Shown piece by piece: positions 3,351 through 52,254 of a stretch of 64,000 nucleotides of DNA. A program made the translations under genes and the position numbers. The stretch's first letter is position 1; every line of letters begins with the position of its first letter. The DNA lies in assembly GCF_003258295.1 (NCBI RefSeq), contig NZ_QKYN01000038.1, positions 1-64,000 of the forward strand, read 5' to 3'. The notes under the pieces are model-generated. The model was given only the letters and a program-made list of their open reading frames with translations. It was not told where the DNA came from and searched no databases. The DNA is from Streptacidiphilus pinicola (GTDB lineage: Bacteria; Actinomycetota; Actinomycetes; Streptomycetales; Streptomycetaceae).

Positions 3351-4138
3351 ACGGGGCAGGCGTCCAGGAAGTCGAGCACGAGCGGGCTCGCGACCTCGCG
3401 GAACTCCTCGAAGTAGGCGTGGCGGGCGCCCGGGATCAGGTGCATCCGGGCGTCGGGGATGCGCTGTGCGAGCAGCGGGGCATTCGCGGACGGGTTGAAC
3501 CGGTCAGCCGTGCCGTGGACGACCAGGGTCGGTGCGGTGATGTCCGGCAGGACCTCCCAGGCGTCATGGCGGCGGCTCGCGACGAGGTGGCGGCCACGGG
3601 CGTACGCGGGCATGCGCGGGTCACCGGTCGTCCCGTAGGGCCCGGGGTGGGTGGCCAGCCACGCGGGCGTGTACATCAGGTCGAGCAGGGTCGCGCGGGC
3701 CGCCTGCGCGTCGCGGGAGGCGAGGGCGGTGCTGACCTCCCGGTCCCGTTCGAGGCCGTGCAGGCCGCCGGGCGTGGTGCAGCCCAGGACCAGCCGGCGG
3801 ACGCGGTCGGGGTGCCGGGCGGCGACCAACTGTGCCACCCGGCCGCCCATGGAGGTGCCGTAGACGTCGGCGCGGTCGATACCGAGCGCGTCCAGGACGG
3901 AGACGACGTCCTCGGCGAAGCCCGGCGTGCTGTAGGGCACGTCGGGCTTGTCGCTGTCGCCGGTGCCGCGGTAGTCGAGCGTGACCGTCGTCCGCGAGGC
4001 GTCGAAGTCCGCGCGGACGCTGTCCCACCAGTGGTGGCTGTTCGACTGGCCGGAGAGCAGGACGAGCGGGGTCCCGGTGCCCGTGCCCCGGACCTGGTGG
4101 GCGATCCGGGTCCCGTCGGGCGCGGTGGCGTGCGGCAT
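3338..4138 (-). CDS. alpha/beta-fold hydrolase
   Basis: Protein of 266 residues with the alpha/beta hydrolase layout: oxyanion strand L-V-L-L-S-G-Q, a D-Y-R-G-T-G-D-S-D motif, nucleophile elbow G-T-S-M-G-G (Ser about 96), a late H-G-T-A-D-R-F-N acid region and a terminal G-A-R-H-A-Y histidine. The closest recognised relatives are 3-oxoadipate-enol-lactonase-like esterases. The substrate cannot be inferred. It is followed by a short monooxygenase-fold gene in the same direction upstream (36-base gap), so the two may form a small operon. Confidence 0.82.
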   Translation of the reverse strand: MPHATAPDGTRIAHQVRGTGTGTPLVLLSGQSNSHHWWDSVRADFDASRTTVTLDYRGTGDSDKPDVPYSTPGFAEDVVSVLDALGIDRADVYGTSMGGRVAQLVAARHPDRVRRLVLGCTTPGGLHGLERDREVSTALASRDAQAARATLLDLMYTPAWLATHPGPYGTTGDPRMPAYARGRHLVASRRHDAWEVLPDITAPTLVVHGTADRFNPSANAPLLAQRIPDARMHLIPGARHAYFEEFREVASPLVLDFLDACPVYPA

Positions 4139-50350: not shown

Positions 50351-51160
50351 ATGAGCGATTACCTGTTGGCTGGTCAGGCTGGGCAGAGCACGGAAATGGA
50401 ACTGGATCGCCTGCTGCTCCAGTCCGAGGTCTGGGAACCCGCGGGCCGTCGGCTGCTGGAGCAGATCGGTCCCGACGGCCACGGTCGCCGTGCGCTCGAC
50501 GTCGGCTGCGGCGCGCTCGGCTGGCTGCGGCTGCTGAGCGCGTGGGCGGGCGACACCGGCTCGGTGCTCGGCTCGGACGTCGACAAGGTGCTGCTGGAGC
50601 GGGCCGCGGGCGTCGCCGAGCGTGACCGGCTGCTCAACGTGCGGCTGCTGGTGGACGACCTGTTCACCACCAAGCTGGAACGTCGCGGCTTCGACCTGGT
50701 CCACGCGCGGCTGATGCTCGCGCCCCTGGGCCGCGCGGAGGAGCAGCTGACCAGCCACCTCTCGCTGCTGGCACCTGGCGGCGTACTGGTGCTGGAGGAG
50801 CCCGACTGCCACAGCTGGCGCTTCGAGGCCCCGGCCCCCGCCGCCCAGCGCGTCCTCGAACTCCTCGCCGAGGCGTTTCGCGCCTCCGGCGGCGACATGG
50901 ACGCGGGCCGCGGCCTCCCCGAACTCCTGCACGCCCGCGGCCTCACCCCCCGCGTCCGCACCGAGGTCCTCGAACTCCCCCCGAACCACCCCTACCTCCG
51001 CATGCCCCTCGCCCTGGCGGCGGGCCTGCGCGACCGCCTCGTCGCCCTCACCGACCCCGGCGAACTCGACGCCCTCCTAGCCGAGGCGGAATCGGAACTC
51101 ACCACCCCCCAGCGCCGCGGCACGACCTTCACCCTGGTCCAGTGCTGGGCCCGGGTCTGA
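50351..51160 (+). CDS. class I SAM-dependent methyltransferase
   Basis: Protein of 269 residues. SAM site R-A-L-D-V-G-C-G-A-L-G-W-L-R near residue 48, D-V-D-K-V-L acidic loop, then V-H-A-R-L-M-L-A-P and L-A-P-G-G-V-L-V-L-E-E. It resembles ubiE/small-molecule O- or C-methyltransferases. The substrate is unknown. It stands alone, closed by a hairpin, next to the tRNA-like locus on the other strand. Confidence 0.8.
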   Translation: MSDYLLAGQAGQSTEMELDRLLLQSEVWEPAGRRLLEQIGPDGHGRRALDVGCGALGWLRLLSAWAGDTGSVLGSDVDKVLLERAAGVAERDRLLNVRLLVDDLFTTKLERRGFDLVHARLMLAPLGRAEEQLTSHLSLLAPGGVLVLEEPDCHSWRFEAPAPAAQRVLELLAEAFRASGGDMDAGRGLPELLHARGLTPRVRTEVLELPPNHPYLRMPLALAAGLRDRLVALTDPGELDALLAEAESELTTPQRRGTTFTLVQCWARV

Positions 51161-51174
51161 GCGAGCACACGGGT

Positions 51175-51207
51175 GAGGCCCGGGAGCATATCCGGCTCCC
51201 GGGCCTC
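51175..51207. terminator. hairpin between convergent transcripts
   Basis: Perfect 13-bp stem, 51175-51187 with 51195-51207, seven-base loop. It ends the methyltransferase gene on the plus strand and could also stop the minus-strand tRNA-like transcript. Confidence 0.65.
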
Positions 51208-51242
51208 GTGCTGCCACCGCGGGGTGGCGCCGACTCCGTGGA

Positions 51243-51349
51243 GAGTGCGGGTCATTCTCAATCCGCCGTGTTCTGCCTTTGAACTACCTCCGCACGCTGG
51301 AGCGGAGAGCAGGAGTTGAACCTGCATCCGGCGAGTGCTGCCCGCACTC
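51243..51349 (-). ncRNA. circularly permuted tRNA-like RNA (tRNA-Gly-like body)
   Basis: On the minus strand, 5'-3': helix strand (51349-51341); CGCCG (51333-51329); GAT; T-arm GCAGG-TTCAACT-CCTGC (51325-51309); acceptor 3' strand TCTCCGC (51308-51302), T discriminator and CCA (51300-51298); linker GCGT; acceptor 5' strand GCGGAGG (51293-51287); TA; D-arm GTTC-AAAGGCA-GAAC (51284-51270); CGGCG (51268-51264), then the helix partner (51251-51243). Acceptor strands pair in seven positions (one G-U), CGCCG pairs CGGCG, and the outer nine-bp helix is perfect. The 5' half matches tRNA-Gly as I recall it. Order of halves is the reverse of a normal tRNA, and no anticodon loop is present. The fold is read by eye; expression is not shown. 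Confidence 0.7.
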
Positions 51350-51406
51350 GGTCGAGCCGACGCCGCGTGGCGAATGCTGAGTCTGGAGCAAGAGTCTGAG
51401 ATTGAC

Positions 51407-51427
51407 CGCGGCCCTTCGCGGGCCGCG
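51407..51427. other. hairpin between the unknown-function gene and the permuted tRNA-like RNA
   Basis: Perfect eight-bp stem CGCGGCCC / GGGCCGCG with a five-base loop (TTCGC on the plus strand, GCGAA on the minus strand), located in the minus-strand leader of the tRNA-like element. It could separate or process the RNA. Confidence 0.5.
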
Positions 51428-51472
51428 TTTCGTCACGACAAGCCTCAGTTTCAGCTTGCGCTCCTTGGCGCA

Positions 51473-51493
51473 CCCCGCTCACTGGGAGCGGGG
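51473..51493 (-). terminator. hairpin downstream of the DUF7873-like gene
   Basis: CCCCGCTC (51473-51480) pairs perfectly with GAGCGGGG (51486-51493), five-base loop, 26 bases after the stop codon on the minus strand. It may be a terminator or a processing site before the permuted tRNA-like RNA. Confidence 0.45.
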
Positions 51494-51519
51494 AGTCTGT
51501 GTGTCACTCGAACAGGCTG

Positions 51520-52254
51520 CTATTCGAAAAGGAAGGCGAAGACGGCGTCGCCGATCCGCTGGTCCGAGACCTCCGTGCCGTTGGCCTCCTCACGGGCGAA
51601 CTTGACCGCCTGCTGCAGCTTCTCCACGCGCTCCAGCAACTGGTTGACGCGCCGCGCCGGCAGTGCGCCGGAGAACTTCACCGTGGTCCAGTGACCGATC
51701 GTCACGTCCTCGGTGTAGACCTCGACCTGGGCCGGGTGCTTCTCGGTGGCCTCGGCCTTCACGTGGTTGCGGTAGACCTTCTTGGTGCGGTTGGTCTTGA
51801 CCGGCTCGGTACGCCAGCTGTCCGTCGACTCGTCCCGGTTCCACGACTCGGCGGCGTCCAGTACCGGCAGCTTCTTGACGAAGCCGTGCACGTCCACCAA
51901 CTGCTTCTCCAGGAACAGCAGGTAGCTCACGGGCACCTCCGCCAGCAGCACCCGGCCGTCGACCTTCACGTCGGCGCGCGCGTCGCAGTTCGCCCAGTCC
52001 TTCGTCGCGGTGACGTCGAAGAGGCGGGTCAGCGAGGACGCCGTCGTGCGCAGCACGTCCTCGGCGTGGACCTGCACCCGCGTCGACTCCGGCGGGAACA
52101 TCTCGCCGTCCTCGTCGCGCGGCTGGTAGGTCCGGGCGATGCCGGTCAGCAGCGCGGTCTTCTGCACGTCGTGCTGCGCCTGGGTCAGGTCCGCCGAGGC
52201 CTTGGCCTTGACGCCCTTCTCGACGGCGATGATCTGGTTCAGCTTGGTGGCCAT
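51520..52254 (-). CDS. conserved protein of unknown function (DUF7873-like) between tRNA-like elements
   Basis: Protein of 244 residues, no signal peptide or membrane helix. Features: basic-acidic helical N-terminus with K-L-N-Q-I-I-A-V-E-K-G-V-K, a conserved A-R-T-Y-Q-P-R-D-E-D-G segment, D-W-A-N-C-D-A-R-A-D-V-K-V-D, L-P-V-S-like strands, the basic K-T-N-R-T-K-K-V-Y-R-N-H and a C-terminal coiled-coil-like R-V-N-Q-L-L-E-R-V-E-K-L-Q-Q. I believe this is DUF7873, a name given from memory. No enzyme motif is seen; the basic patches would suit nucleic-acid binding. A GGGGGAA ribosome binding site precedes ATG 52254. A tRNA-like element ends 34 bases upstream and a second lies downstream, all on the minus strand. 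Confidence 0.7.
   Translation of the reverse strand: MATKLNQIIAVEKGVKAKASADLTQAQHDVQKTALLTGIARTYQPRDEDGEMFPPESTRVQVHAEDVLRTTASSLTRLFDVTATKDWANCDARADVKVDGRVLLAEVPVSYLLFLEKQLVDVHGFVKKLPVLDAAESWNRDESTDSWRTEPVKTNRTKKVYRNHVKAEATEKHPAQVEVYTEDVTIGHWTTVKFSGALPARRVNQLLERVEKLQQAVKFAREEANGTEVSDQRIGDAVFAFLFE

Follow-up and report, generated by a model that had tools for sequence, protein, structure and literature searches.

Results

A permuted tRNA-like module beside a DUF7873 gene

The DNA analysed is a 64,000-nt stretch of Streptacidiphilus pinicola contig NZ_QKYN01000038.1 (positions 1 to 64,000, referred to below as the window). On its minus strand, a gene for a DUF7873 protein is adjoined by a structured RNA. 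A sequence-only reading of the window had proposed a circularly permuted tRNA-like RNA at 51243-51349, and this was confirmed: a complete circularly permuted fold lies on the minus strand at this position, with the acceptor 3' half, linker and 5' half in permuted order, and every arm and helix listed in that reading is present. We refer to this domain as M2. The gene and the elements of M2 are as follows; the elements below the M2 line are read from the sequence.

51520-52254, minus strand: DUF7873 gene, encoding the linked protein (Pfam PF25283, E 3.6e-117; start codon of MATKLN taken as 52254)
51243-51349, minus strand: module M2, a permuted tRNA-like domain with a 9-bp closing helix (MFE fold, Rfam, covariation)
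51349-51341 paired with 51251-51243, minus strand: closing helix, 9 bp
51333-51329, minus strand: anticodon-position stem, 5' strand CGCCG
51325-51309, minus strand: T-arm GCAGG(TTCAACT)CCTGC, preceded by the variable loop GAT
51308-51302, minus strand: acceptor 3' half TCTCCGC
51301-51294, minus strand: acceptor linker TCCAGCGT, given in the sequence-only reading as CCA plus GCGT
51293-51287, minus strand: acceptor 5' half GCGGAGG
51284-51270, minus strand: D-arm GTTC(AAAGGCA)GAAC
51268-51264, minus strand: anticodon-position stem, 3' strand CGGCG

All seven acceptor pairs are formed, one of them as G-U. The MFE fold of M2 is the permuted tRNA-like structure (z -3.4; 0 of 200 shuffles equally good), and it leaves no loop at the anticodon end. 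The likeness of the 5' half to tRNA-Gly, proposed in the sequence-only reading, was borne out by 20 of 25 bases identical to tRNA-Gly(CCC) of the same genome, the top match among 47 distinct tRNAs from 46 fetched stretches, which make up part of the genome's tRNAs. Nothing in the window scored above Rfam gathering thresholds. Under relaxed limits the top match was YrlA (51242-51347, 29.6 bits, E 1.5e-4; gathering score 69), and the tmRNA model gave no match in the window in either the gathering or the relaxed scan. ARAGORN reported only a tRNA-Tyr in the window and did not recognise M2 as a tRNA gene.

The RNA is linked to DUF7873 in phages and actinobacteria

We assembled 208 DUF7873 loci. 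The genus contributed 12, one of them belonging to the window; 80 lie on genome contigs (339 relatives, best 80 taken); 25 come from a class-wide draw; 81 lie on viral contigs (one from the first scan, plus the best 80 among 277); and the rest are 9 phage records and 1 record filed as a plasmid. The set overlaps in part, since L093 is the same contig as L200 and some of the 80 genome contigs repeat genomes sampled in other groups. L117 and L118 derive from a single broken gene. Among the 208 downstream sequences, 197 are distinct. Modules were sought with a script (the detector) that requires, in permuted order, a T-arm, acceptor pairing, a D-arm and pairing of the anticodon-position stem. The results showed 316 modules beside the 208 loci (two in 124, one in 68 and none in 16). 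At least one module lay within 650 nt of 192 of the 208 genes, with 116/118 for bacterial and 76/90 for viral loci, and the two bacterial loci without a module are the two pieces of the broken gene. As controls, the detector gave 17 unvetted matches in 2.0 Mb of other sequence taken at these loci, which includes tRNA arrays, and none in 0.67 Mb of shuffles. In 122 of the 124 two-module loci, the gap between the first module (M1) and M2 is 70-85 nt. The structured RNA is about 350-400 nt long and normally contains two permuted modules, of which M2 is the second. The fold at 51243-51349 is real, but the segment is one domain, not the RNA unit it had been taken for, and the whole is linked to DUF7873 and occurs commonly in phages.

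A covariance model of the M2 domain, R1, matched at full length in all 92 bacterial loci L001-L092 (76 outside its training set, 16 inside) and in 76 of the 90 viral loci (50 of the 64 outside the training set; 26 viral loci are inside). Matches were partial or cut in 6 viral loci, and at E <= 1e-6 there was none in 8 (L124, L127, L139, L140, L143, L171, L179 and L185), although the detector found modules in L127, L143 and L185. The five weakest full-length viral matches (48.6-60.2 bits; L191, L182, L183, L126 and L123) are less sure, because tandem tRNA-Asn genes reach a partial 60.9 bits. Over 296 class genomes, searched with strict filters and with only the best candidates per genome considered, the 24 full-length matches of at least 76 bits fell in the 24 genomes with intact DUF7873 (11 of them in the training set) and in 0 of the other 272. 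The 25th DUF7873 genome, G210, carries gene fragments only. Matches near 60 bits in Streptomyces genomes lacking DUF7873 were set aside; the two examples inspected are tandem tRNA-Asn genes.

The RNA usually lies downstream of the DUF7873 gene. In L199 it is on the opposite strand, near a tRNA-like sequence, and in L205 it is upstream of the gene, so it is more than a 3' untranslated region and can be a unit of its own. Five or more tRNAs are present in 26 of the 90 viral stretches and none in 38. Within the fetched flanks, a tRNA-Tyr upstream of the DUF7873 gene was found in three genus loci only. These findings show that the RNA is tightly linked to DUF7873 and present in many phages and actinobacterial genomes.

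Covariation of the M2 domain

Fifty-three M2 domains were aligned with MAFFT with no structure imposed, and the consensus was predicted with RNAalifold. The T-, D- and acceptor stems and two outer helices were recovered, with two-sided changes in 29 of 31 pairs. The anticodon-position stem was absent from this prediction and was added, giving a 36-pair model; the stem itself is paired in 79.2% of cells. The compensatory changes across homologues on which the sequence-only reading had staked its claim were found, since 34 of the 36 pairs change on both sides. In this model 92.2% of cells pair, compared with 40-44% when the pairing is slid, and the covariation score is 0.695, compared with 0.11-0.15 when slid and reached by 0 of 500 shuffles. 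The aligned sequences had been chosen by the detector, which requires T, D and acceptor pairing, so the acceptor value (99.5% of cells paired) arises partly by construction; at least two pair types are seen for each acceptor pair. The selection made no demand on the closing and outer helices, in which 85.3% and 94.3% of cells, respectively, are paired and all 15 pairs show two-sided changes. Covariation of this strength indicates that the M2 fold is more than chance. Fold and covariation also agree with the YrlA-like topology that had been proposed, for which the sub-threshold YrlA hit is the best Rfam match.

Architecture of the larger RNA

The remaining features of the RNA in the window, like the DUF7873 gene absent from the sequence-only reading, are as follows.

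about 51175-51493, minus strand: extent of the RNA, which includes M2 and adjoins the DUF7873 gene
51473-51493, minus strand: 5' hairpin P1 (MFE fold of 51172-51515)
51457-51472, minus strand: small hairpin P2 (MFE fold)
51431-51454, minus strand: first hexamer array, CTGAAA CTGAGG CTTGTC GTGACG (6-nt period in relatives; pattern YTSARR)
51407-51426, minus strand: short cap hairpin at the M1 site (comparison with L013 and others; folds)
51376-51400, minus strand: second hexamer array, CTCAGA CTCTTG CTCCAGA CTCAGC (6-nt period; T[CT]GCTC core; MFE pairing with the first array)
51364-51357 paired with 51233-51226, minus strand: outer helix beyond the closing helix (6 modelled pairs, all with two-sided changes)
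51217-51382, minus strand: match of covariance model R1 (133.7 bits; window sequence in the training set)
51175-51207, minus strand: 3' hairpin with GGATAT in its loop and no T-run after it (GG[AC]TA[CT] hairpin in relatives)

The window copy is a one-module case, in which M1, carried at this position by L013 and other relatives, is replaced by a capped short stem. It also has no TTAAACG element (near 51242-51236). Having lost both, the copy may be in early decay, or it may be a one-module variant.

Across 43 non-redundant loci, a 6-nt period was found on both sides of M1 (lag-6 z 20.1 for the first array and 12.3 for the second), and the lag-3 signal was below chance. A coding origin of the arrays, which resemble alternating Lys/Leu codons, was rejected on the lag-3 result and on stop codons seen by eye in the second array. 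The first array follows the pattern YTSARR, although its base counts lean towards that pattern because the arrays were located by a script scoring it. T[CT]GCTC follows M1 in 110 of the 124 two-module loci, and TTAAA or TCAAG follows M2 in 108. In the two actinobacterial RNAs folded whole (MFE), the arrays pair together into an interrupted stalk bearing M1 or the cap. Over 40 loci the array-array helix scored -11.5 with its own strands, compared with -10.2 for permuted strands (sd 0.43, p 0.0014). In 4 of 8 printed examples, all four from phages, it was weaker than -7 kcal/mol, and with such weak pairing in several phage RNAs the helix accounts for the arrays in part.

The GG[AC]TA[CT] 3' hairpin, a motif picked after examples had been viewed, is present in 75/89 bacterial and 23/35 viral two-module loci, compared with 0-1 in controls. 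A T-rich tail followed this hairpin in 1 of the 37 loci checked, and the other 36 have no T-run. The P1 loop motif was unsupported in bacteria (19/89 vs 16/89 in the control) and occurred in 17/35 viral loci vs 6/35 in the control. A search of 51100-51560 revealed no simple sigma-70 promoter. In many of the bacterial loci L001-L116, ARAGORN called a normal-order tRNA-Phe/Leu-like fold over the P1 hairpin and the M1 T-arm, 20-40 nt after the DUF7873 stop. These calls across M1 were judged by eye to be probably spurious; the P1 strand that would serve as acceptor does not pair in every relative.

Acceptor linkers

The acceptor linkers of the 124 two-module loci are 4 to 76 nt long (detector limit 89). 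N+CCA stands at the linker start in 43/124 M1 and 32/124 M2 modules, or 36/70 viral and 39/178 bacterial linkers. Only 13 of the 47 distinct tRNAs of the S. pinicola genome encode CCA, so the scarcity of linker CCA is weak evidence against cutting. The sequence-only reading had offered a tRNA mimic or a two-piece RNA: the mimic is supported, and a two-piece RNA cut at the linker by RNase P/tRNase Z is not favoured, given the variable linker length and uncommon CCA. In Klebsiella phage FBKp24 (L125, 3763-4220), each of the two modules has an encoded CCA and looks much like a real tRNA; a doubtful suppressor tRNA is annotated nearby in that record, at 4012-4091.

The DUF7873 protein

Among the relatives collected, the closest named one is from Streptacidiphilus jiangxiensis (92% protein identity). 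The AlphaFold2 model of the window's DUF7873 protein (mean pLDDT 93.2, pTM 0.77) had no PDB or viral-structure match at E <= 1e-3 and corresponded to no known RNA-binding fold, and the protein's sequence had no relative in the PDB at E <= 10. No family was found for it in PADLOC, PHROGs or NCBIfam, and no toxin, defence or nuclease family matched. Among the viral-model matches listed, the only one with a Foldseek probability of 1.00 was BFVD A0A7M1RW91 of uncultured phage cr118_1 (TM 0.58 by target, E 9.3e-3, rmsd 12.7), which, judged from these models, is possibly a remote DUF7873 relative. Among 14 control genomes, Deinobacterium chartae alone had a DUF7873 match, and it alone had a TROVE match.

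In a midpoint-rooted tree of 106 DUF7873 proteins, bacterial sequences fell in several clades among viral ones, with at least four label changes on well-supported branches, the direction of which the tree does not give. The tree fits a phage origin with repeated capture. The upstream flanks of the 80 genome contigs fell mainly into two shared neighbourhoods (29/80 and 26/80), and these suggest that the locus is largely inherited within Streptomyces.

Permuted modules beside TROVE genes

No TROVE/Ro match was found in the S. pinicola genome (98.65% complete). TROVE was found in 36 of the 296 class genomes and 16 of the 25 with DUF7873; among 26 DUF7873 phage records, some of them fragments, it was absent from 21 and present in 5. 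Eight TROVE stretches (L235-L242; for example L236, 2834-3140), selected because R1 gave partial matches there, contain 15 permuted modules beside TROVE genes, which we took as local Y RNAs, with two modules in 7 of the 8. The YrlA model scored 31.5-56.2 bits in these stretches and 26.9-29.8 bits for the full-length matches of the relatives of M2; as both sets fall below the gathering score of 69, failing this score decides little by itself. Perhaps the actinobacterial Ro-linked modules are a clade-specific type of Y RNA.

GTGCGNAG together with an upstream YACTTC was present in 13 of the 15 Ro-linked modules, from which it was learnt, and in 0 of the 316 DUF7873-linked modules. This signature may be a Ro-binding site. 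Conversely, the signatures of the DUF7873 RNA occurred in 0 of the 15. GNCGAA is a Ro-binding motif, and it was found in 1/15 Ro-linked and 29/316 DUF7873-linked modules; being rare even in the Ro-linked set, it did not discriminate. Six of the eight TROVE-stretch genomes also carry DUF7873, indicating that a single genome can house two separate systems that share this mimic.

Discussion

The structure of the RNA, its two-module design, its linkage to DUF7873 and its presence in phages and actinobacteria are direct observations. An RNA that travels with one protein in big phages and soil actinobacteria points to a new tRNA-imitating RNA-protein particle. We consider it rather likely that the locus specifies an RNP with two components, DUF7873 and the RNA of about 350-400 nt with its two tRNA-elbow mimics, and that this RNP acts on a tRNA-handling enzyme. 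DUF7873 would bind the RNA, perhaps through the hexamer arrays or the conserved hairpins, and the mimics would dock the enzyme, as is thought for the tRNA-like end of Y RNA. A mechanism of this kind has support in published work: Y RNA tethers Rsr to PNPase in D. radiodurans, and the authors propose the YrlA tRNA-like domain as a possible competitive inhibitor of an anticodon nuclease (PMC7790460). In phages, the particle would most likely divert or tether a tRNA-cutting or -processing enzyme, so that tRNAs are protected or matured during infection; the Streptomycetaceae would carry a domesticated version. The tRNA-rich viral stretches and the nesting of bacterial among viral DUF7873 sequences speak for this reading. 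The viral stretches devoid of tRNAs, the viral loci with no R1 match or a weak one, the missing fold match of DUF7873, the reduced window copy and the negative promoter search speak against it. More tentatively, the locus could represent a new Ro-independent class of phage RNP, in which a ~400-nt RNA with twin mimics at nearly fixed spacing and a periodic stalk joins DUF7873, acts on the host tRNA pool (by luring away defence nucleases that cut tRNA, or as a twin mimic on the ribosome) and was captured by actinobacteria more than once.

Other readings account for parts of these data. An ordinary Y RNA of the YrlA type, serving a Ro/Rsr protein encoded elsewhere, would explain the top Rfam match, the TROVE genes in 16 of the 25 DUF7873 class genomes, and the paired modules and frequent DUF7873 genes of the TROVE-stretch genomes. 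We consider this quite improbable, as TROVE is missing from the S. pinicola genome and most DUF7873 phage records, the Ro-linked and DUF7873-linked signatures do not cross over, and high-scoring full-length R1 matches track DUF7873, not TROVE. The modules could instead be permuted precursors resembling tRNA or tmRNA that are cleaved at the linker to yield two-piece RNAs, which might be chargeable. The N+CCA linker starts, commoner in viral loci, and the near-perfect acceptor stems agree with this; linkers of 4 to 76 nt, the missing anticodon loop and acceptor pairs that each occur in at least two types, and so include no fixed identity pair, make such a precursor equally hard to credit.

Two further explanations concern the protein. 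The RNA might be the antitoxin or inhibitor of DUF7873 acting as a tRNA- or ribosome-targeting toxin. Type III pairs combine strict protein-RNA pairing with short repeats placed upstream of the gene, and the first two traits are shared by this locus, but the RNA lies mostly downstream, in L199 on the other strand, and DUF7873 matches no toxin, defence or nuclease family; a type III-like pair is unlikely. Cas7 binds 6 nt per subunit, and DUF7873 might be a Cas7-like filament protein coating the 6-nt repeats. The first Foldseek run was suggestive, with Cascade chains, taken as Cas7 by their length, making up 16 of the 20 top-ranked PDB matches of the first model (best E 2.6e-3). TM-scores by query length of 0.11-0.15 mean that the folds do not superpose, profile comparison with Cas7 (hhalign) gave a probability of 0.2%, and the second model, of a divergent member, had its best Cascade match at E 1.1 among the 50 matches listed. 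On these results a Cas7-like fold was rejected, and as the arrays also pair with each other in the two actinobacterial RNAs folded, a coating filament is extremely improbable.

In the literature searched, outside which most subscription journals and preprints lay, we found no description of such an RNA or system and no mention of DUF7873, and the DUF7873-linked RNA was apparently undescribed before. If the RNP reading is true, permuted tRNA mimics of the Y-RNA design can exist apart from the Ro autoantigen family, and a widespread uncharacterised protein gains a defined RNA partner. The benefit of a tRNA-mimic RNP to large phages and streptomycetes is then a testable question. Rfam 15 does not recognise the RNA above its thresholds, and R1 can be used by annotators.

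Comparison with known systems

GOLLD is one of several large RNAs of phage or tRNA-array loci. The DUF7873-linked RNA resembles it as a structured non-coding RNA able to sit in tRNA arrays, and differs in its permuted tRNA modules and linked protein. No GOLLD-type family from Rfam was found in the six loci scanned (E <= 0.1). GOLLD occurs in mycobacterial tRNA arrays (PMC9569102). scr3559 of S. coelicolor, considered as a tRNA-like RNA, was discarded; it is a 6S/Ms1-like RNA.

In two-piece (permuted) tmRNA, the 3' half precedes the 5' half with a linker between them, and the present RNA shares the permuted halves and the linker. Unlike two-piece tmRNA, it gives no tmRNA match in the window, its linker and CCA are not conserved, and it carries two modules per RNA.

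The closest likeness in design is to YrlA (Rfam RF02553), with a permuted module, a closed acceptor end, retained T- and D-arms and an anticodon end opening into a stem; the presence of two modules is shared with actinobacterial Ro loci (7 of the 8 TROVE stretches inspected). Unlike YrlA, the RNA is linked to DUF7873 instead of Ro/TROVE and lacks the Ro-linked signature, and to the shared module it adds an outer helix, hexamer arrays, the GG[AC]TA[CT] hairpin and the TTAAACG element.
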